Assembly: GCF_000473895.1 (NCBI RefSeq)
Contig: NZ_ASSJ01000041.1
Coordinates: forward strand, 62,001-126,000
DNA length: 64,000 nt
Source: Rubidibacter lacunae KORDI 51-2
GTDB lineage: Bacteria > Cyanobacteriota > Cyanobacteriia > Cyanobacteriales > Rubidibacteraceae
Direction: 5' to 3'
Position 1 is the stretch's first letter. Each line of letters begins with the position of its first letter. Positions 22,835 through 44,315 of this stretch are shown piece after piece. Both the position numbers and the translations under genes were made by a program. The notes under the pieces were generated by a model, which saw only the letters and a list, made by a program, of their open reading frames with translations, was not told the origin of the DNA and did no database searches.

Positions 22835-22942
22835 GCAAGATGCAATTTTAATTCGCTCCAATGTCTGACTGTAAGACGAACTCGGACTTCTGTTTCCCAC
22901 AATTTTAGCAATCTAGAACAGGTTGTGTAGAAACTTTTGATA

Positions 22943-23045
22943 AGGGTCACCTCGAAAAATCGCCGGATTGTGGCGAGCCGGCGGCTGAAATGCCCGTGCT
23001 GCGGTGCCGACCTTCGGTCTTGAGCGAATTAATCGAGGTACCCTA
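22943..23045. repeat. Dispersed repeat family 2, copy with terminal inverted repeats
   Basis: The left end AAGGGTCACCTCGA and right end TCGAGGTACCCT are inverted repeats around a GC-rich core containing CTGAAATGCCCGTGCTG. It matches 37411..37512 closely and 6796..6885 partly. The right end supplies the last codons and the TAA stop of the minus-strand gene at 23029..23991. Confidence 0.8.
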
Positions 23046-33525: not shown

Positions 33526-34196
33526 ACTTATCTCCTCAGCTTACCTACTAGCTCGAACGTCGATAGAGCGAGTTTTCTATCGAGCAAACCTCGGCAAACG
33601 TTATGCGGTTCTCAGCGACGCAAGTCAGGGTGTTACTTATCTCAACCGATTGCCGGCACGAGAAAACCCTCACATTTTACGTATGGCTTCATACTGTCCG
33701 TTAGTCTTCTGCAATAGCATACAGCACTGAAGAATCTATTGGGTTCTTGCTGCGCATCGCCTCCATCAAAAAATGCTTTCTTGATAGGGTACTTTCTCGA
33801 GAACCTATCAACTCGGCCCAGCATCGCTCGATCTACACTCAACGCGATCCCTGGTAACCGTGCTCGTTGCCATCAGTTGTTTCGTGCTTGGCCCGAGGAA
33901 AACAAACTGGGAAGAACTCGCTGGTCGCGATCGCGCCCAAGTCAACTTCCAACCGCTTCCGTCTAACCCCGCTGGGAGAATCCAGGCGGCGAAAGACCAG
34001 TTGTGAATTAGGCGATAATGCCTACGGAAAGCTAGAAATCAGACAGGGTCATGCTGGCTCAACACCACGCAGTTAGGCGGAGATTAAATGGAACGGCGGG
34101 CTTTTCCAGCGCCAGTAACAAGCCCAAACGCTGCAGTGTCAATAGCTAAATGTGACTTTATAGAGCATCGAACGCCAATTGCTTCTAAACACCAAC
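33526..34196. other. Gap between methyltransferase and hopanoid locus
   Basis: 671 bases with short uninformative frames on both strands. No transposase, RNA gene or repeat was recognised. Confidence 0.4.
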
Positions 34197-34225
34197 GCCG
34201 ATAAGGATGCTATCGCCTTATCGGC
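34197..34225 (-). terminator. Hairpin downstream of sqs1
   Basis: GCCGATAAGG, nine bases and CCTTATCGGC form a perfect 10-bp stem, 54 bases past the sqs1 stop. The T tract is poor. It probably ends or stabilises the shc1-sqs1 transcript. Confidence 0.6.
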
Positions 34226-34278
34226 ACTGAAGCATCCGAGTCTCTGGCTTAAGCAGAGTGAGCGTGAGCGGGTCGTTT

Positions 34279-35097
34279 CTAGTTACTACTCGTAGCCATT
34301 GCCACCAGTGCCAGCACGTCGCTGCGGCTGAGCTTCTCTTTGCCCTGTGACAGTGCATCCAGCGTCCCGTAAGCCAGCGCCAGCGGAATCCGGCAGAAAT
34401 TCAGTGCTGGACCGTGAGGTAGCGACGCACAGTACTGATCTGCCAGCGAAAGATTGTAGCGCGCGTAATCGTGTAAGTCCGCTGTGCTCCATCCCTCGGG
34501 GAGAAAGTCCGCACCCCGGCCGAGGTCTTCGCTGCGATTGCGCAGAATGTTGACCGCCTGCAACCCTCGCCCGAAACCGATCGCATGCATGCGATCGGTC
34601 TGAGTGTTGTCGTACCATCCCCACAAATCCGAGAGCAGCAAACCCACCGCACCGGCAACACTAAAGGTGTAACAATCCAAATCGGCTTGCGATCGCACCA
34701 ACCAATTGCATTCCGCCCAGTAGGCCATACGATCGGCCATCGCTGCTGACGCATCCCAGACCCGCGGTGCGATCTCATCTGGAGCCAATAACGCCCATTC
34801 GCCGACGCGCATCGTTACCGAATCCAGGCGATCGCGGAACGATTCTAGCCCGATCGTGAAGTCATCGATAGCCGTACTCGCATTTGCGGACTGCAAGTTC
34901 AGGCTTAGAGAACGCAACAACTTTGCCTTAAGTACATTATCGAGATGGGGGTGATCTTCAATTTCGTCGATCGCTCGCATGCACAGATAGGCAGAAGTTA
35001 CAGCCTCTTTAAGACGCGGCGGCAATCCGCTAATTGGAATGAGAAACGTGCGGCTAGTCGCCTGCAACATATCTATCGCATTGCGAAGCAAACTCAT
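34279..35097 (-). CDS. Squalene/phytoene synthase-like protein, copy 1
   Basis: A 272-residue trans-isoprenyl head-to-head synthase family protein, close in size to HpnC/HpnD. The first Asp-rich motif is intact (Asp44 to Asp48 in AIDEIEDH). The second is altered: where the family usually has an Asp, this protein has Asn187 in LRNRSED, followed by Glu190 and Asp191. FSVAGAVGLLLSDLWGW matches the central helix. GAGGAG precedes the ATG. It lies downstream of shc1 and is presumably co-transcribed, so a role in supplying or processing a squalene-type substrate is likely. A near copy is at 37903..38670. The exact product is not predictable. Confidence 0.85.
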   Translation of the reverse strand: MSLLRNAIDMLQATSRTFLIPISGLPPRLKEAVTSAYLCMRAIDEIEDHPHLDNVLKAKLLRSLSLNLQSANASTAIDDFTIGLESFRDRLDSVTMRVGEWALLAPDEIAPRVWDASAAMADRMAYWAECNWLVRSQADLDCYTFSVAGAVGLLLSDLWGWYDNTQTDRMHAIGFGRGLQAVNILRNRSEDLGRGADFLPEGWSTADLHDYARYNLSLADQYCASLPHGPALNFCRIPLALAYGTLDALSQGKEKLSRSDVLALVAMATSSN

Positions 35098-35211
35098 TGT
35101 TAGTAGGACTCCTCACACGATTTAGCTAATTAACGATACCCACTAATCTGCATCCGATCCAGCCAGCACAGTAACACGTATGCTGCGAGCAAGCTAGCCG
35201 GAGCGCGGTAC

Positions 35212-37140
35212 TCATGTCCGCTCGGCAAGGAACTGCCGGTAGCGTCCGAGTGCAACCAGTGGGAAATACTGGTAGTAGTAGTGGTAGCGAATATAGAAGT
35301 GACCCGGGAAACCCGTACCGGTAAACTCCGCCTCTTCCCAGCGTCCGTTCTCCAGCTGTGTGCCTAAAAGATACTCGACGCCGCGTGCCAGAAACTGTTG
35401 CGCGTAGCTACCCGTGGCGTCTCCCGCTGCCAGTAGCCCGATGAGCGCCCATGCCGTCTGCGAGGCCGTGCTGACTCCCTTACCTTTGAGCGTCGGATCC
35501 TCGTAACTGCGGCAGGTTTCGCCCCAACCGCCATCGGGGTTCTGGACGCCGACTAGCCAAGCTGCTCCTCGCTCGATGGCATTGCGGGCGCGCTGGGGAG
35601 CCACCAACGCCAGGGCCGAGAGCGCGCCGCTGGTGCCGTAGATGTAGTTGACGCCCCAGCGTCCGAACCAGCAGCCCTCGGATTCTTGCTCGTCTAGCAA
35701 ATAGTCGAGCGCACGATCGCAGCGCTCGCGGGCGATCCCCGGTTGTTGGGGATCGAGGTAGCCGACCATCTCCAGCACGCGTGCCGTCACGTCGGCAGTA
35801 TTGGGATCGATCGTGGCTTTAAGGTCGGAGTAGGGCAAGAGGTTGAGCCAATCGCTGTCGTTGTCGACGTCGTATGCAGCCCAGCCGCCTGCCCGACACT
35901 GCATTGTTGCAATCCATTGCGTTGCTCGCGCGATCGCTTGGCGTTTGAGAGCTTCCTCGGGCAGGCATAACTGCTCCAGCGCTATCACGACCACAGCCGT
36001 ATCGTCTATATCGGGGTAATACCTGTTGACGAACACGAATGCCCACCCGCCGGGTTCCCCCTGGGGGTTTTTAACCCTCCAGTCGCCGTAATCGAGAATT
36101 TGCCGCTCCAGCAGCCAACGACCGGCAGCCACAACTTCGGGCGCGTCTGGTGCCATGCCCGAATCGACTAAAGCACGCACCACCCAAGCCGTATCCCACA
36201 CGGGGGAGACGCAGGATTGCACGCGATACACTTCGTCGTCTTCCAACACGAAGTTGTCGATCGCTTGAAAACCGCGATCGACAATCGGATCGTCAACCGC
36301 ATAGTCGAGCGATCGCAGGGCCAGCATTGAGTTGACCATCGCAGGGATGATTCCGCCCCAGTCGCCAGTGGCTTCTTGGCGCTCTACTATCCAGCGCTCA
36401 GCGGCTTTGAGTCCCTCCTCGCGCAACGGCACGAGGTTCCAGTCCTCTGCGAACTTAAAAGCATCGTCGAGCCAAACGAAGGCATCGCTCCAGTCATTGT
36501 TGCGCGGCAATTCGTACCGGACGTTGGCACTACCTTCGGCAAAGAGTTCGTCGAGTTTGACAGACGGTTCAACCGGATAAACAGGTTTTTTGTCGAATAC
36601 GATTGCCAAGGGAACCGTGCTGCAACGCGCCCAGCTAGACATTTCGTAAATCGAAAAGGGAAAGGGTGGGTGGCAGAACACGATCCACGGTGGAATCGAC
36701 GGTAACCCGCGCCAGTTGTAGCAGTCGACAAGGGCTAACTGAAACTTCGTAAAGATTCGAGTTTTACTGATGCCGCCGCGTTCCAAAATAAACGTACGGG
36801 CTTTGACAAGTGCCGGATCGCCAGCAGGAACCCCGAGCAAGCGCAAACCCAAGTAGGCTTCAACACTGGTACTAAGATCGCCGCCATCGCCATAAAACAC
36901 TTCCCAACCGCCACTTTCGCATTGTTGCTGGCGCAGATAGGTTTCAATTTTATGCAGCGGCCTTAATCTATCGGTCCTCCAAATTTTGTGCAAGAGAAGC
37001 ACTTCAACTGTAACCGTGACATTAGCTTCGAGCTCTGCCCACCAATAACCTTCAGGATATTGCTGGGAAAGTAAATAACGTTGACTGGCAGCCACGGCCT
37101 CTTCGAGCCGGCCGAGCCAAACCTCAGAGTGAAGTTGCAT
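35212..37140 (-). CDS. shc: Squalene-hopene cyclase, copy 1
   Basis: Squalene-hopene cyclase, 642 residues, cyclising squalene to hopene at the membrane. The catalytic DXDD is Asp377-Ile-Asp379-Asp380. QW repeats are spread through both barrels (for example QNPDGGWGE and QYPEGYWW), with SPVWDTAW in the active-site wall. The copy differs from shc3 at a usually conserved spot just before DXDD: AFVFVN here (Val369, Val371) versus AFEFDN there. That replaces an acidic residue common to the family and may alter product or activity. It is over 90% identical to shc3 by eye. sqs1 follows 114 bases downstream. Confidence 0.94.
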   Translation of the reverse strand: MQLHSEVWLGRLEEAVAASQRYLLSQQYPEGYWWAELEANVTVTVEVLLLHKIWRTDRLRPLHKIETYLRQQQCESGGWEVFYGDGGDLSTSVEAYLGLRLLGVPAGDPALVKARTFILERGGISKTRIFTKFQLALVDCYNWRGLPSIPPWIVFCHPPFPFSIYEMSSWARCSTVPLAIVFDKKPVYPVEPSVKLDELFAEGSANVRYELPRNNDWSDAFVWLDDAFKFAEDWNLVPLREEGLKAAERWIVERQEATGDWGGIIPAMVNSMLALRSLDYAVDDPIVDRGFQAIDNFVLEDDEVYRVQSCVSPVWDTAWVVRALVDSGMAPDAPEVVAAGRWLLERQILDYGDWRVKNPQGEPGGWAFVFVNRYYPDIDDTAVVVIALEQLCLPEEALKRQAIARATQWIATMQCRAGGWAAYDVDNDSDWLNLLPYSDLKATIDPNTADVTARVLEMVGYLDPQQPGIARERCDRALDYLLDEQESEGCWFGRWGVNYIYGTSGALSALALVAPQRARNAIERGAAWLVGVQNPDGGWGETCRSYEDPTLKGKGVSTASQTAWALIGLLAAGDATGSYAQQFLARGVEYLLGTQLENGRWEEAEFTGTGFPGHFYIRYHYYYQYFPLVALGRYRQFLAERT

Positions 37141-37902
37141 TCGCTATCCTCAGGGTGAAGTTGAACTAGCGATCGCGGGCAAACGTATACAGATTTCTTT
37201 GTCACGACCAAAGTTAGAGTTTCAGCGATCTGGATACTTAAAACCTAGCGCTCTGGTCTCAACGTGTCTAAATCAAGCCCCACATATTGCGATAATTGAG
37301 CAGCGATTCCCAAGCTATGCGTTTGCCCTAGCGGCACTAATATTAGCCCAGCAAAGATTTGACAGTAGCGTCAGAGAACGACTTGGGGAAAAACTTGCAG
37401 TAATAATGCTAAGGCACCTCGAAAAATTGCCGGATTATGGCGTATCTGCGGCTGAAATGCCCGTGCTGCCGTGCCCACCTTCGGTCTTGGGCGAATTAAT
37501 CGAGGTGCCCTTGAGGAAGATGCTTTTGCGTGCATCTAGTGATGGAACCATTTCGGATGGTGTGTAGAACCGCAGCATGGGCAGACTTGTTATATGCTAC
37601 CTCGAGCATTCTTAAGACCAAGTGCTCTTGGTTTATTAACATCGTTATTAAGGCAGACAATGAGATAGAGGAGACGGGTTAATACAAAAGTTGTCATGAG
37701 TAACCGAGGTGCAAGTGCTATATATCATGAGCAATCATGTTGACTAAAATTGCCGCCAAGCCATGCCCTGAATTGGCTGCGTCCCACCCATCTTGAAAAA
37801 TATTTTGGACTTGCTGATAGCGGCGCGTTTTCTTAGACCCTACACTGACGAGTCACAGAGTGGCTAACGCAATCGCCAACCACAAGCGCTGGACTGGGTC
37901 AG
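37141..37902. other. shc1 upstream region and decayed 3' flank of sqs2
   Basis: 762 bases. The first roughly 150 resemble the region upstream of the shc2 pseudogene (40927..41080), sharing CTATCCTCAG, a GATCGCG site, CGATCT and CTCTGGTCTCAAC versus TATGTTCTCAAC. They are therefore a duplicated promoter block. A family 2 repeat lies at 37411..37512. Just before sqs2 the sequence still aligns to the missing C-terminus of sqs1. Confidence 0.55.
37411..37512. repeat. Dispersed repeat family 2, best-preserved copy
   Basis: The left end AAGGCACCTCGAAAAATTGC and right end TCGAGGTGCCCTT form inverted terminal repeats. The core contains GCGGCTGAAATGCCCGTGC and ACCTTCGGTCTT, as in 22943..23045. Length is about 102 bp with no coding capacity. 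It separates two hopanoid units. Confidence 0.8.
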
Positions 37903-38670
37903 TCATCTTGGTATCATGCAAGTACTACTACGTAGTGCCCCGTATGCCAGCTTCAGCGGAATCCTACAGAAATTCAATGCTGGACCTGGAGGCAGCGAAG
38001 AACAGTACGCATCTGCCAGCGACAGATTATTGCTTGCGTACTTGTGTAAGTCCGTTATGCTCCACCCATTAGGCAGAAAATCCACGCCGCGAGCGAGGTC
38101 TTCGCTGCGACTGCGCAGAATGTTGACCGCCTGCAACCCACGCCCGAAGCCGATCGCGTAGGTGCGATCGGTTTGGGTTTTATCATACCATCCCCACAAA
38201 TCCGAGAGCAGCAAGCCTACCGCACCGGCAACGCTGAAGGTGTAACAATCCAAGTCGGCTTTCGATCGCATCTTCCAATTACATTCCGCCCAGTGGGCCA
38301 TACGGTCGGCCATAGCTGCTGTCGCATCCCACACCCTCGGAGCGATCTCAACCGGGGCCAGCAGCGCCCATTCGCCGAGGTGCATCGTTACTGACTCCAA
38401 GCGATCGCTGATCGGTTCCAGCTCAATAGTGAAATCATCAACAGTAGTAGTCGGGTTCGCCGACTGAAGGGTGAGACTCAGCGAACGCAACAACTTTGAC
38501 TTGAGTGCATTGTCGAGATCGGGGTGATCTTCAATTTCATCGATCGCTCGCATGCATAAATAGGCAGAGGTTACAGCCTCTTTCAGACGCGGTGGCAATC
38601 CCCTAATTGGACTCAGAAAAGTGCTGCTGGTCGTTTTCAACGCATCCATCGCATTTTGCAGTAAAGCCAT
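37903..38670 (-). CDS. Squalene/phytoene synthase-like protein, copy 2, altered C-terminus
   Basis: A 255-residue paralogue of the gene at 34279..35097. The first motif AIDEIEDH is intact. The second reads LRSRSED, again lacking the usual Asp. After LAYGAL the frame departs from copy 1, and the last residues (RSSTCMIPR) replace a helix of about 30 residues. The DNA beyond the stop still aligns to the copy 1 tail, so small deletions have broken the 3' end. It may still fold but is probably on the way to pseudogene status. It lies downstream of the shc2 pseudogene, as sqs1 lies after shc1. GAGG precedes the ATG. Confidence 0.7.
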   Translation of the reverse strand: MALLQNAMDALKTTSSTFLSPIRGLPPRLKEAVTSAYLCMRAIDEIEDHPDLDNALKSKLLRSLSLTLQSANPTTTVDDFTIELEPISDRLESVTMHLGEWALLAPVEIAPRVWDATAAMADRMAHWAECNWKMRSKADLDCYTFSVAGAVGLLLSDLWGWYDKTQTDRTYAIGFGRGLQAVNILRSRSEDLARGVDFLPNGWSITDLHKYASNNLSLADAYCSSLPPGPALNFCRIPLKLAYGALRSSTCMIPR

Positions 38671-38786
38671 ACTACAGTGTTTCCTCAGACGGTTTAACTA
38701 TTCATCAACACACGATTGTCTGATACGTACTCAAGCCACGCATTTAGATGACTACTGTGCGCAATCTAGCCTTAGAGCGGAAATTT

Positions 38787-40926
38787 TTAGCTTCCGGCAA
38801 ATATGTGTTTGTAGCGTCCAAGTGCAGCGAGCGGGAAATACTGACAGTAGTTATGGTAGCGGATGTACATAGGGCTTGCTGAAAAAGGCTGGAATTGTTT
38901 TAGCGAGAAGGTTCCAGCGTTTTCTGCGTCAGAGAAGTGCAAGGTTATGGTTGCTAGAGCCTCAAAACCCTTGCACTTGAGCCGAGATCTAGGGGCGAAA
39001 ATCTGGGGCTAGATGGCGAAAGCCTGATTTCATGAGCTCTCTGTCCCCTAAATTCACTTTGTGGACTTTTTCAGCAAGCCCTACATATGCTTTGTGAAAC
39101 CCGTACCTGTAAACTCCGACTCTTCCCAGCAACCGTTCTCCAGTTGCGAGCCTAAGAGATAATCGACCCCGCGTGCCAGAGACTCATGCGTGTATTCATC
39201 CGTGACATCTCTCGCTGCCATTAGCCCGGTGAGCGCCCACGCCGTCTGTGAGGCCGTACTGACTCCCTTGCCTTTGAGCGCCTGATCCTCATAACTGCGG
39301 CAGGTTTCGCCCCAACCGCCATCGGTGTTCTGTATGCCGACTAGCCAGGTCGAGCCTCGCTGGATCGCGTCGCGTACTCGGTGGGGAGCTATCAGTACCA
39401 GCGCCGAGAGCGCGCCGCTGGTGCCGTATATGTAGTTGACACCCCAAAGTCCGAACCAGCATCCTTCAGGTTCTTGCTCTTCGAGCAGATAGTCGATGGC
39501 GCGATCGCAGCGTTTGCGGCCGATCGCGGGTTGTTGGGGATCTTGGTGACCAACCATCTCCAGCACGTGTGCTGTCACATAGACGGTGTTGGGATCGATC
39601 GAGGATTTAAGGTCGGAGTAGGGCAAGAAGTTGAGCCAATCGCTGTCGTTGTCGACGTCATCTGCCGCCCAGCCGCCCGCCCTACACTGCATGGTTACAA
39701 TCCATTGCGTTGCTCGCACGATCGCTTGGTGTTTAAAAGCTTCCTCGAGCATGCGTAGCTGCTCTAGTGCCATTACGACCACAGCCGTATCGTCTACATC
39801 GGGGTAAAACGGTTGTCCAGCTCGAAGGCCCACCCACCGGGTTTTCCCTGGGGGTTTTTAAAACTCCAGTCGCCGTAATCGAGACTTTGCCGATCCAGCA
39901 ACCAACGACCAGCAGTCACTAGCTCGGCTACGTCCGGTTTAATACCCGAATCGACCAGCGCACGCACCACCCAAGCCGTATCCAAAACGGGGGAGATGCT
40001 AGCTTGCATTCGATATACTTTGTCATCTTGTAGCACGAAGTAGTCCAACGCTTTAAAACCGCGATCTACAATCGGGTCGTCAACCGCGTAGTCAGGCGAT
40101 CGCAGGGCCAGTATTGAGTTGAGCATCGAAGCAAAGAATCCACCCCAGTCAACGGTGGCTTCTTGGCGCTCGATTAGCCACCGCTCGGCGGCTTTAAGCC
40201 CCTCTTCGCGCAACGGCACGAGGTCCCAGTCCTCTGCGAACTTGAAAGCGTCGTCAAGCCAAACGAATGCATCAGTCCAGTCATTGTTGCGCGGCAATTC
40301 GTAACGTACTTTCGCAATTCCTTCGGCGAATATTTCGTCGAGTTTGACAGCTGGTTCAACGGGATAAACAGGTTTTTTGTCGAATACGATATCAAGGGGA
40401 CGGTGCCGAGTCGTGCCCAGCTGGACATTGCGTAAATCGAAACAGGGAAAGGTGGTTTGCAGAACACGATCCAAGGTGGGATCGATGGCAATCCCCGCCA
40501 TTTGTAGCAGACCACAAGTGCCAAGTGAAGCTTCGTAAAGATCCGGGTTTTGCTGATACCGCCGCGTTCCAGAATAAATGTTCGGGCTTTGACAAGTGCC
40601 GGATCGCCAGCATGAACCCCAAGCAAGAGCAAACCCAAATAGGCTTCAACACTGGTGCTAAGATCGCCGCCGCCGCCATAAAACAATCTCCAACCGCCAT
40701 TTTCACTTTGTTGCTGGCGCAAATAGGATTCAATTTTATGCAATGGCAATACTGAGTCGGCCCCCCAAATTTTGTGCAAGAGGAGCATTTCGACTGTATT
40801 CGTGACGTTAGATTCTAGTTCTGCGCACCAATAACCTTCGTGATTTTGCTGGGACAGTAAATAACCTTGACTGGCATCCACAGCACGGTCGAGTCGGTCG
40901 AGCTAAACCTTAGAGTGAAGTTGTAT
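38787..40926 (-). pseudogene. Squalene-hopene cyclase pseudogene, copy 2
   Basis: A full-length but wrecked cyclase. Compared with the intact copies: the start ATG is ATA (40924-40926); codon 8 is TAG; a frameshift near 40390 splits TVPL from DIVFDKKP; another near 39815 splits FELDNRF from FYPDVDDTA; and a 212-bp MITE (38871..39082) interrupts the codons before YIRYHNYCQYFPL. The C-terminal end with a TAA stop remains beyond the insertion. DXDD is still readable, so decay is recent enough to leave most codons aligned. It is more diverged from shc1 and shc3 than they are from each other. Confidence 0.93.
38871..39082. mobile_element. 212-bp MITE inside shc2 pseudogene
   Basis: Perfect 17-bp terminal inverted repeats, AGGGCTTGCTGAAAAAG and CTTTTTCAGCAAGCCCT, flanked by a 4-bp duplication ACAT (38867-38870 and 39083-39086). 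Removing the element and one ACAT restores the cyclase reading frame across the junction (HMYIRYH). No transposase is encoded, so mobilisation would be in trans. Confidence 0.93.
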
Positions 40927-41125
40927 AAGCTATCCTCAGAGAGAAAATGCGATCGCGATAACAGATAGGGCATAGGTATATAGATTTTAGTGCCACAACC
41001 TAAATTAATATTCCAACGATCTAGGGTGCTTGAAATTAGATCTATGTTCTCAACAAGTCTCGACGTGCCCCACTTATTAAAAAATTATAAGCTGAGATTC
41101 CGTCTTAGCGATTACTTAGCTGCAT

Positions 41126-43054
41126 TTATGTCCGCCCGGCAAAAATCTGCCGGGTGCGCCCGAGGGCAATCAAGGGAAAATACTGGTAGTAGTAGTGGTA
41201 GCGCAAAAAGAAGTGCTCTGGGAAACCCGTACCGGTAAACTCCGCCTCTTCCCAGCGTCCGTTCTCCAGTTGTGAGCCTATCAGATACTCGACGCCTCGC
41301 ACAATAAACTGTTGCGCGTAGCTACCCGTGGCGTCTCCCGCTGCCAGTAGCCCGATGAGCGCCCACGCCGTCTGCGAGGCCGTGCTGACTCCCTTACCTT
41401 TGAGCGTCGGATCCTCGTAACTGCGGCAGGTTTCGCCCCAACCGCCATCGGGGTTCTGGACGCCGAGTAGCCAAGCTGCTCCTCGCTCGATGGCATCGCG
41501 GGCATGCTGGGGAGCCACCAGCGCCAGGGCCGAGAGCGCGCCGCTGGTGCCGTAGATGTAGTTGACGCCCCAGCGCCCGAACCAGCAGCCCTCAGGTTCT
41601 TGCTCGTCTAGCAAATAGTCGAGGGCACGATCGCAGCGCTCGCGGGCGATCCCCGGTTGTTGGGGATCGAGGTAGCCGATCATCTCCAGCACGCGTGCCG
41701 TCACGTCGGCAGTGTTGGGATCGATCGTGGCTTTAAGGTCGGAGTAGGGCAAAAGGTTAAGCCAATCGCTGTCGTTGTCGATGTCGAATGCTGCCCAGCC
41801 GCCTGCCCGACACTGCATGGTTGCAACCCATTGCGTGGCTCGCACGATCGCTTGGCGTTTGAGAGCTTCCTCGGGCAGGCGTAACTGCTCCAGCGCCATC
41901 ACGACCACCGCCGTATCGTCTACATCGGGGTAAAACCGGTTGTCAAACTCGAATGCCCACCCGCCGGGTTCCCCCTGGGGGTTTTTAACCCTCCAGTCGC
42001 CGTAATCGAGAATTTGCCGCTCCAGCAACCAACGACCGGCAGCCACAAGTTCGGGCGCGTCTGATGCCATGCCCGAATCGACTAACGCACGCACCACCCA
42101 AGCCGTATCCCACACGGGGGAGATGCAGGGTTGCACGCGATACACTTCGTCGTCTTCCAACACGAAATTATCGATCGCCTGAAAACCGCGAACGACAATC
42201 GGATCGTCAACCGAGTAGTCGAGCGATCGCAGGGCCAGCATTGAGTTGAGCATCGCAGGAATGATTCCGCCCCAGTCGCCAGTGACTTCTTGGCGCTCTA
42301 TTACCCAGCGCTCGGCGGCTTTGAGTCCTTCTTGGCGCAACGGCACGAGGTTCCAGTCTTCTGCGAGCTTAAAGGCATTGTCGAGCCAAACGAAGGCATC
42401 GCTCCAGTCATTGTTGCGCGGCAATTCGTACCGGACGTTTGCACTACCTTCGGCGAAGAGTTCGTCGAGTTTGACAGACGGTTCAACCGGATAAACAGGT
42501 TTTTTGTCGAATACGATTGCCAAGGGAACCGTGCTGCCACGCGCCCAGCTAGACATTTCGTAAATCGAAAAGGGAAAGGGCGGGTTGCAGAACACGATCC
42601 ACGGTGGAATCGATGGCAATCCCCGCCAGTTGTAGCAGCCGACAAGCGCCAAGTGGAACTTCGTAAAGATCCGAGTTTTACTGATGCCGCCGCGTTCCAG
42701 AATAAACGTACGGGCTTTGACAAGTGCCGGATCGCCAGCAGGAACCCCGAGCAAGCGCAAACCCAAATAGGCTTCAACACTGGTGCTAAGACTGCCGCCG
42801 TCGCCATAAAACAATTCCCAACCGCCACTTTCGCGTTGTTGCTGGCGCAGATAAGCTTCAATTTTATGCAGGGGCCTTACCGTATCGGTTCCCCAAATTT
42901 TGTGCAAGAGGAGCACTTCGACGGTAATCGTGACATTAGATTCGAGTTCTGCCCACCAATAACCTTCAGGATATTGGTGGGAGAGTAAATAACGTTGACT
43001 TGCAGCCACGGCACGGTCGAGCCGGTCGAGCCCAACCTCAGAATGAAGTTGCAT
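41126..43054 (-). CDS. shc: Squalene-hopene cyclase, copy 3
   Basis: An intact 642-residue cyclase with the expected motif set: AFEFDN before FYPDVDDTAVV (DXDD at 377-380), SPVWDTAW and QW repeats including NPDGGWGE and QLENGRWEE. It has the consensus residues that copy 1 lost, so it is the best candidate for the main hopene-forming enzyme. No sqs-like gene follows it; the shc2 pseudogene starts 200 bases downstream. It is divergent from hpnB, 94 bases away, so a shared promoter region (43055..43148) probably serves both. Confidence 0.95.
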   Translation of the reverse strand: MQLHSEVGLDRLDRAVAASQRYLLSHQYPEGYWWAELESNVTITVEVLLLHKIWGTDTVRPLHKIEAYLRQQQRESGGWELFYGDGGSLSTSVEAYLGLRLLGVPAGDPALVKARTFILERGGISKTRIFTKFHLALVGCYNWRGLPSIPPWIVFCNPPFPFSIYEMSSWARGSTVPLAIVFDKKPVYPVEPSVKLDELFAEGSANVRYELPRNNDWSDAFVWLDNAFKLAEDWNLVPLRQEGLKAAERWVIERQEVTGDWGGIIPAMLNSMLALRSLDYSVDDPIVVRGFQAIDNFVLEDDEVYRVQPCISPVWDTAWVVRALVDSGMASDAPELVAAGRWLLERQILDYGDWRVKNPQGEPGGWAFEFDNRFYPDVDDTAVVVMALEQLRLPEEALKRQAIVRATQWVATMQCRAGGWAAFDIDNDSDWLNLLPYSDLKATIDPNTADVTARVLEMIGYLDPQQPGIARERCDRALDYLLDEQEPEGCWFGRWGVNYIYGTSGALSALALVAPQHARDAIERGAAWLLGVQNPDGGWGETCRSYEDPTLKGKGVSTASQTAWALIGLLAAGDATGSYAQQFIVRGVEYLIGSQLENGRWEEAEFTGTGFPEHFFLRYHYYYQYFPLIALGRTRQIFAGRT

Positions 43055-43148
43055 TCGCGATCGCGGGCGATTGGATAGTTGACATCTACCTGCCTGGTTG
43101 GGCAGATACTGTATTCTGCTCTCTAGTGGACAGGAATGGCAATAGTCG

Positions 43149-44315
43149 ATGGCAATCGCAGGCGTGACGATCGTGGGGCTGGCATTAGCAAGTTGGCTGG
43201 TGCTGGTGGTAGTTTTGGGGCAATTTTGGCGGGCAGACCAGCGGCTAGAGGCAATCGTGTCGCCAACCTATCCGTCAGTGTGTGCGGTGGTGCCCGCGCG
43301 CAATGAAGCAGTCTTGCTGCCGACAACGCTGCGATCGCTGCTGTCCCAGGACTATGCCGGTTCGTTCCGTATTGTTTTGGTGGACGACCAGAGTACGGAC
43401 GGCACGGGCACGATCGCGCAACAAACTGCCGAACAACTTCACTTTACGGAGCGGCTGGACGCGATTGCGTCGCAGCCCTTGCCCGCTGGGTGGACGGGTA
43501 AACTATGGGCGATGGAGCAGGGGCGGCGCTTTGTAGCCGAGCGCTATCCGGAGACCGAGTGGCTGTTGCTGACCGACGCGGACATTCAACACGATCCGCT
43601 CAATCTGCAGCAGTTAGTGGCTAAGGCAGTGGGCGATCGCCGCGATTTGGTCTCGCTGATGGTGCTGTTGCGCAGCGAGACGGCGTGGGAACGCTGGCTG
43701 ATTCCGGCATTCGTGTACTTCTTCATGCAGCTCTATCCGTTTCGTTGGGCGAACGACCCGCAACGATCGCTGGCCGCGGCAGCCGGCGGCTGCATTTTGA
43801 TCCGGTGCGCGGCACTAGAGGAAATCGGTGGGTTTGCGGCGGTGCGGACGGCGCTGATCGACGATTGCGCGCTAGCGGCAGCCGTGAAAGGCCGCGGCCG
43901 TCGGATTTGGTTGGGGCTTACGCAGCACACGATGAGCTTGCGGTCATATCCCTCGCTGGCGAGTATTTGGGATATGGTGGCACGCACGGCATACGCACAG
44001 TTGCGTTACTCCCCGCTACTGCTGGTCCTGACGGTGTTGGGCATGACATTGGTATATTTAGTGCCGCCGTTGGGGACGCTGTGGGGGGTCGCCCGCGGGG
44101 AATGGTTGGTGGCTGCACTGAGCGCGATCGCGTGGTTGCTGATGGCAGCCACGTACCTACCGACCCTGAAATTTTACGAGCGATCGCGGCTTTGGAGTTT
44201 GGGATTGCCCGCGATCGCCGCGCTTTATACGGCAATGACCGTGGATTCGGCGTGGCGGCATTGGCGCGGTCGAGGCGGACGTTGGAAAGGGCGTGCCTAC
44301 GCCCAAGTGCCCTGA
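43149..44315 (+). CDS. hpnB: Hopene-associated glycosyltransferase HpnB
   Basis: A 388-residue GT2-family enzyme of the HpnB type. There is an N-terminal membrane helix (about 5-27), then the GT-A core with VVPARNEAVLLPTTL, VLVDDQSTDGTG and the metal-binding LTDADIQHD, a GGCILIRCAALEEIGGF acceptor loop, and three or four C-terminal helices (about 285-370). HpnB genes travel with hopanoid clusters, though their exact reaction is not settled. Divergent placement next to shc3 supports the hopanoid link. The start ATG at 43149 keeps the helix; an upstream ATG nearby is out of frame. Confidence 0.88.
   Translation: MAIAGVTIVGLALASWLVLVVVLGQFWRADQRLEAIVSPTYPSVCAVVPARNEAVLLPTTLRSLLSQDYAGSFRIVLVDDQSTDGTGTIAQQTAEQLHFTERLDAIASQPLPAGWTGKLWAMEQGRRFVAERYPETEWLLLTDADIQHDPLNLQQLVAKAVGDRRDLVSLMVLLRSETAWERWLIPAFVYFFMQLYPFRWANDPQRSLAAAAGGCILIRCAALEEIGGFAAVRTALIDDCALAAAVKGRGRRIWLGLTQHTMSLRSYPSLASIWDMVARTAYAQLRYSPLLLVLTVLGMTLVYLVPPLGTLWGVARGEWLVAALSAIAWLLMAATYLPTLKFYERSRLWSLGLPAIAALYTAMTVDSAWRHWRGRGGRWKGRAYAQVP

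Follow-up and report, generated by a model that had tools for sequence, protein, structure and literature searches.

The genome of the marine cyanobacterium Rubidibacter lacunae KORDI 51-2 (4,153,658 bases in 99 contigs) contains a tandem array of squalene-hopene cyclase (SHC; shc) and squalene synthase (sqs) genes, which was analyzed in this study within a 64,000-nucleotide stretch of DNA (C41:62001–126000, hereafter the window). The amplification is lineage-specific and exceptional among the sampled cyanobacteria, and it is ordinary in kind. All members lie on the minus strand, and their order in the direction of transcription is shc3, spacer S, the shc2 pseudogene, sqs2, a repeat-filled junction, a remnant of an shc tail, a second spacer S, shc1, and sqs1, with hpnB upstream of shc3 in divergent orientation. 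The anatomy of the array and the paralogy of its copies are directly observed; its history probably comprised two duplications, decay of shc2 and sqs2, and gene conversion between shc1 and shc3, in an order of events that we infer.

Features of the array (window positions):
43149–44315, plus strand: hpnB, hopene-associated glycosyltransferase gene head-to-head with shc3 (TIGR03469, 548.6 bits; cut-off 379.25)
41126–43054, minus strand: shc3, intact squalene-hopene cyclase gene, copy A, at the common hpnB–shc locus (TIGR01507, 885.9 bits)
40929–41125, minus strand: spacer S between shc3 and shc2, aligning over nearly its full length with the block upstream of shc1 (score 114 versus at most 35 in 500 shuffles)
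about 38787–40926, minus strand: shc2 pseudogene, copy B, with an ATA start, TAG at codon 8, two one-base deletions, and an inserted miniature inverted-repeat transposable element (MITE)
38872–39081, no strand assigned: the 210-bp MITE within shc2, with 15-bp perfect inverted ends and a 6-bp target duplication (TACATA)
37903–38670, minus strand: sqs2, squalene synthase gene without the conserved C-terminal end (homologous to sqs1 only as far as about 37932)
37413–37788, no strand assigned: dispersed genomic repeats in the junction, including a ~100-bp element with palindromic ends (37413–37511)
37346–37416, minus strand: remnant, 3′ end of a further shc copy (alignment to shc 3′ ends against shuffles)
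37143–37345, minus strand: further copy of spacer S, preceding shc1 (alignment to spacer S)
35212–37140, minus strand: shc1, intact squalene-hopene cyclase gene, copy B′, altered at conserved positions (TIGR01507, 871.9 bits)
34279–35097, minus strand: sqs1, intact sll0513-type squalene synthase gene (PF00494; family alignment)

Cyclase and squalene synthase genes

Both shc1 and shc3 are 642-codon open reading frames (ORFs) that exceed the TIGR01507 cut-off (431.1 bits) over their full length, and the only fragment of shc2 scanned (39081–39833, 313.8 bits) falls under it. The catalytic DxDD motif of squalene-hopene cyclase is retained as DVDD in shc3 and as DIDD in shc1. Six places in the genome matched SHC, all of them pieces of shc1, shc2, and shc3. 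Nucleotide and protein identities are 93.3 and 91.0% between shc1 and shc3, 83.7 and 78.1% between shc1 and shc2, and 84.2 and 78.9% between shc2 and shc3. The three copies form one clade with 100/100 support in a tree with 51 relatives as background, which makes them lineage-specific paralogues and not unrelated acquisitions. One gene assembled twice was ruled out, because the copies differ by ~7–18% in DNA and lie on the same contig. An earlier, sequence-only reading of this DNA had recognized three shc and two sqs genes in this order on one strand, two intact, non-adjacent cyclases more than 90% identical with a decayed copy between them, and a tandem amplification, all of which are borne out by the ORFs, the TIGR01507 and PF00494 matches, the protein identity, and the single clade; its inventory of shc copies had missed the remnant at 37346–37416.

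The PF00494 cut-off was exceeded by both sqs1 (272 aa) and sqs2 (255 aa), which are 82.5% identical in nucleotides and 80.9% in protein over 246 codons and are monophyletic among 31 relatives (SH-like approximate likelihood-ratio test (SH-aLRT) 99, quick tree). Judging from the PF00494 matches and from conserved family columns in a 14-row alignment (sqs1, sqs2, and 12 relatives), both genes belong to the sll0513 type of squalene synthase. The TIGR01559 squalene synthase equivalog (cut-off 286.75) is reached neither by sqs1 (70.5 bits) nor by sqs2 (60.7 bits), nor by any of 60 relatives. The 3′ end of sqs2 is truncated: the last ~26 residues, present in sqs1 and in 12 of 12 aligned relatives, are missing, which corrects the earlier identification of two synthase-like copies.

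Inactivation of sll0513 in Synechocystis abolishes the squalene peak according to PMC3953072, which also gives Thermosynechococcus a squalene-forming enzyme different from the sll0513 type. The sll0513 protein of Synechocystis PCC 6803 (277 aa) and sqs1 are alike in belonging to a short family; a Synechocystis salina protein, presumably an ortholog of sll0513, is 69% identical to the sqs query. An identity of the sqs genes as phytoene synthase was ruled out, because the best fit to cyanobacterial CrtB is a separate gene on contig C49, of which the 261 residues used score 497.5 bits (the cut-off of 550 applies to the whole protein). That gene is the sole further squalene/phytoene synthase match in the genome, in which HpnH has one match over its cut-off. 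Sqs1 presumably makes squalene today, and shc3 and shc1 would cyclize it; these enzyme activities are all predicted from sequence.

Duplicated segment and junction

The block upstream of shc1 aligns with the shc3–shc2 spacer and then with the last ~70 bases of shc coding sequence (37143–37416 versus 40929–41205: 185 of 282 columns identical, score 157 versus at most 39 in 1000 shuffles). Taken alone, the shc tail (37346–37416) matches the 3′ ends of shc1 (47 of 67 columns identical, score reached by 0 of 1000 shuffles), shc2 (49 of 72, 0 of 1000), and shc3 (48 of 72, 1 of 1000). The shc–sqs intergenic stretches of both units match as well (score 58 versus at most 32 in 500 shuffles), and the upstream flank of shc3 gave no clear match to that of shc1 (score 27, attained in 8 of 500 shuffles). 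These alignments point to a duplicated segment that comprised the tail of an upstream shc, the spacer, and an shc, and extended into sqs. Because the 3′ tail of an earlier shc was part of this segment, the array before the duplication would have been shc–shc–sqs. The unit had been described earlier as promoter–shc–sqs; shc, sqs, and an upstream block are indeed repeated, but the block consists of the shc3–shc2 spacer plus the 3′ tail of the preceding shc.

Between the truncations of sqs2 and the shc tail, ~500 bases hold dispersed genomic repeats. Parts of 37245–37940 have at least 43 other matches in the genome, at least 39 of which span the ~100-bp element (best 40 of 98 candidates scored); the fold of this element is better than those of 199 of 200 shuffles (z-score −3.3). 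No other shc or sqs fragment stood above shuffles in 37420–37940 (shc score 26, attained in 226 of 300), and none was clear in 33526–34250, where 18 of 300 shuffles scored as high as the best candidate, a match to shc3. The ~100-bp dispersed repeat with palindromic ends occurs also at 22938–23044 of the window.

Decay of shc2 and divergence of the copies

The shc2 gene has decayed: its start codon has changed from ATG to ATA, codon 8 is TAG, and single bases are deleted at coding-sequence positions 537 and 1118. Similar to bacterial MITEs, the inserted 210-bp element holds no gene and has perfect 15-bp inverted ends, a 6-bp target duplication, and many near-identical copies. At least 44 genome matches to this query were found (its own included, some being pieces of one copy), at least 18 of which, again with its own place, are at least 96% identical over at least 190 bases (best 40 of 60 candidates scored). 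Exact matches to the 15-base ends number 58 in the genome, versus 0 for a reversed control. Among 20 loci scanned, 14 copies have both ends exact, and their 6-bp flanks are identical in 13 and differ by one mismatch in 1. The element in shc2 is young. Target duplications of the family are mostly TA-rich, and copies lie at many other places in the genome.

Pairwise alignment and synonymous divergence (dS), a check proposed with the sequence-only reading, separated the copies. By the NG86 method dS was 0.16 for shc1–shc3 (YN00 0.13; bootstrap 95% interval of NG86 0.127–0.210), 0.47 for shc1–shc2 (0.38; 0.386–0.561), 0.45 for shc2–shc3 (0.38; 0.356–0.532), and 0.60 for sqs1–sqs2 (0.42; 0.462–0.795), and the interval of shc1–shc3 overlaps none of the others. 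By these values shc1/shc2 and sqs1/sqs2 appear similar in age and shc1–shc3 far younger. The flanks make shc2 the sister of shc1, whereas the nearest copy by coding sequence is shc3, at about one third of the synonymous divergence of shc2. Because flanks and coding sequence of shc1 disagree, we infer gene conversion between shc1 and shc3, or an equivalent replacement, which reconciles the two. The conversion suggested earlier is thus backed by this discordance and by the non-overlapping dS intervals, but not by an internal tract (see below).

Polarized with shc2, the ratio of nonsynonymous to synonymous changes (pN/pS) is 0.345 in shc1 and 0.31 in shc3 (Fisher p = 0.85 between the two), and at 0.065 changes per site a 642-codon frame would stay open under neutral drift with a probability of 0.006. 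These values support purifying selection on both shc1 and shc3; of the selection for dosage or new products proposed earlier, constraint on both intact cyclases (pN/pS about 0.3) is the part that stands. The omega of shc2 against shc1 or shc3 (0.24–0.32) suggests that shc2 was constrained during much of its existence and died late. Past constraint would extend to sqs2, which probably decayed recently. Changes clearly away from the relatives, counted at 148 polarizable or ambiguous two-to-one amino-acid sites, number 40 in shc2, 9 in shc1, and 3 in shc3. Branch lengths in the protein trees are 0.39 for shc2, 0.095 for shc1, and 0.036 for shc3, and 0.5 for sqs2 and 0.054 for sqs1 (quick tree). 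Shared derived amino acids number 0 for shc1 and shc2, 0 for shc1 and shc3, and 1 for shc2 and shc3.

Distribution among cyanobacteria

Two overlapping samples were searched, 386 genomes of the phylum, R. lacunae among them, and 388 of the order, with an SHC match threshold of 1e-60 and at most three candidates scored per genome. SHC matches were present in 88 of the 386 genomes and more than one in R. lacunae only; in the order sample 223 of 388 genomes have a match, and no other genome has two full-length SHC genes. The earlier statement that a single shc is usual holds for these sampled cyanobacteria. Seven other genomes of the order have two SHC matches (G018, G424, G498, G519, G557, G577, and G587). 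In each, the best E-value is no stronger than 1e-245 and does not amount to a full-length match, a pattern suggestive of split genes. G018, the only one of the seven inspected, has shc in pieces with stops. This genome (L032 on C57, and C80) is 86% complete; its sole shc is broken and its sqs lies in two overlapping pieces, reflecting either hopanoid loss under way or poor assembly.

The sll0513-type synthase was identified in 79 of 386 genomes, all within the 88 with an SHC match, so that its occurrence tracks that of shc. Its two copies adjoin shc in R. lacunae, whereas each of the other 78 genomes has one copy, in most cases unlinked to shc. Nine genomes have an SHC match and no sll0513-type synthase: G095 and G413 (partial SHC with stops), five of family f40, and the distant G064 and G083. 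The f40 genomes (G134, G215, G280, G313, and G329) have SHC and no such synthase at 1e-30, a pattern consistent with the different enzyme that PMC3953072 gives Thermosynechococcus; f40 as the family of Thermosynechococcus is a guess. Against a strict tie to SHC speak G049 and G050, among the 60 relatives, in which the sll0513-type synthase is present and an oxidosqualene-cyclase-like protein replaces canonical SHC. Cyclase and sqs lie about 3 kb apart in G050 (L033, C452:14387–19273) and 11 kb apart in G049 (L034, C8:8144–11629). These cyclases fit 2,3-oxidosqualene cyclase TIGR03463 best (721.8 bits in G050 and 693.2 in G049; cut-off 851), and that of G050 matches human lanosterol synthase (E = 4e-142), which suggests sterol-type cyclization.

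Of 57 loci containing shc (not all independent, some incomplete), 33 have hpnB and shc head-to-head. Because this arrangement is common, shc3 is likely the copy at the ancestral site. Single-copy cyanobacterial hpnB–shc loci have the same head-to-head pair; in R. lacunae additional shc and sqs copies follow. The shc–sqs pairing itself is not unique to this species: sqs comes after shc in the same orientation, at a distance of about 140–410 bases, in G365 (L130), G130, G274, cyanobacterium PCC 7702 (L212), and Gloeomargaritales VI4D9 (L224), and it lies 1.3 kb downstream in G136. Different from R. lacunae, these are single pairs with no amplification. Two Acidobacteria are similar in having two shc copies per genome, according to PMC5462960. 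A limited literature search found no tandem shc in a cyanobacterium in titles or abstract openings, and no paper linking Rubidibacter to hopanoids.

Proposed history and alternatives

The history that we consider probable would have begun in the Rubidibacter lineage, when the shc of the hpnB–shc locus was duplicated beside sqs to give shcA–S–shcB–sqs. Tandem duplication of the stretch from the shcA tail into the 3′ end of sqs would have followed, with one breakpoint in the shc tail and the other close to codon 247 of sqs, so that one event may explain both truncations, the missing 3′ end of sqs2 and the lone shc tail. Dispersed repeats may later have filled the junction. The extra copies would have been under constraint for long; recently shc2, partly via the young MITE, and probably sqs2 would have decayed, and shc1 and shc3 would have been homogenized by gene conversion.

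Several points weigh against this history. The match of the shc tail is short, and the direct junction of sqs2 and the tail is hidden beneath repeats. The published KORDI 51-2T draft (PMC3910548) is an assembly from 454 reads, with a count of 283 pseudogenes. A read error may thus account for either one-base deletion in shc2, and would account less readily for the stop, the lost start, and the MITE. The protein tree pairs shc1 with shc2 with a bootstrap of 99 but an SH-aLRT of 28, and so does not fix the branching order of the three copies. A scan for an internal conversion tract gave codons 159–577 as best with a permutation p of 0.22 under free choice, and therefore no tract is claimed. Clustering of site patterns was weak across five statistics (p = 0.034, 0.028, 0.060, 0.013, and 0.22). 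Fourfold sites of shc1 and shc3 are identical at 191 of 204 in codons 161–580, 39 of 46 in codons 61–160, and 38 of 49 in codons 1–60 and 581–642; the comparison of ends with center (Fisher p = 0.0017; controls shc1–shc2 p = 1, shc2–shc3 p = 0.37) used regions picked post hoc, with codons 61–160 omitted.

Recruitment of shc1 to a new product, instead of its retention for dosage, seems doubtful, although it draws on changes at conserved residues. Of 236 near-invariant columns shc1 violates 12 and shc3 5, against 0 to 11 in the 51 relatives, each compared with the rest; the relative with 11 has no known novelty. Eight of the 12 fall where shc3 is normal (L81V, H134Q, G139D, L269V, E369V, F374Y, M386I, and F423Y), at residues conserved in 50–51 of 51 relatives. 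By alignment, H134, E369, and F423 correspond to W133, Q366, and Y420 of the Alicyclobacillus acidocaldarius SHC. Position 420 and the stretch beside F365 presumably line the active site. The A. acidocaldarius variants L36V/Y420F/G600L (PMC11165016) and A419G/Y420C/G600A (PMC9586974) have other products or substrates, and with E369V and F423Y among its changes an altered shc1 product is possible. However, A. acidocaldarius itself normally has Y at position 420, so F423Y may be nothing unusual; pN/pS is similar in shc1 and shc3, and shc1 keeps DxDD, to which PMC3953072 assigns a catalytic role in SHC. More specifically, shc1 could be a neofunctionalized cyclase with a C30 product other than hopene, conversion keeping the copies similar while the surroundings of the active site diverge, which we regard as unlikely.

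About as improbable is that shc1 is on its way out, only shc3 and sqs1 mattering today. The changes at eight otherwise conserved positions, the decay of the adjoining shc2 and sqs2, and the 283 pseudogenes counted in the genome (PMC3910548) would fit such a fate, but the frame of shc1 is open and its pN/pS is about 0.35 at a dS of 0.13–0.21 to shc3.

The whole shc–shc–sqs array could also have been duplicated and a complete fourth shc later deleted down to its 3′ tail, e.g., via repeat recombination. The end of the remnant at 37416 lies at the edge of the ~100-bp repeat, as a repeat-mediated deletion would leave it. This course, which we likewise judge improbable, needs extra losses (the body of the fourth shc and the 3′ end of sqs2), compared with one duplication and two breakpoints, and 37420–37940 holds no shc fragment above shuffles. 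Independent horizontal acquisitions of shc at one locus, for which no supporting point was found, are ruled out as good as entirely by the monophyly of the shc and of the sqs copies, which stay together in the phylogenetic check for unrelated clades that the sequence-only reading had proposed.

Implications

Hopanoids serve as biomarkers of ancient bacteria. In the other sampled cyanobacteria possessing shc this gene is single, and a genome with two constrained cyclases offers a natural test of dosage versus a new lipid. The array of R. lacunae represents a readable case of tandem duplication, homogenization, and decay with a MITE. If shc1 did acquire another product, shc1 and shc3 would be a natural pair showing the evolution of triterpene product choice.

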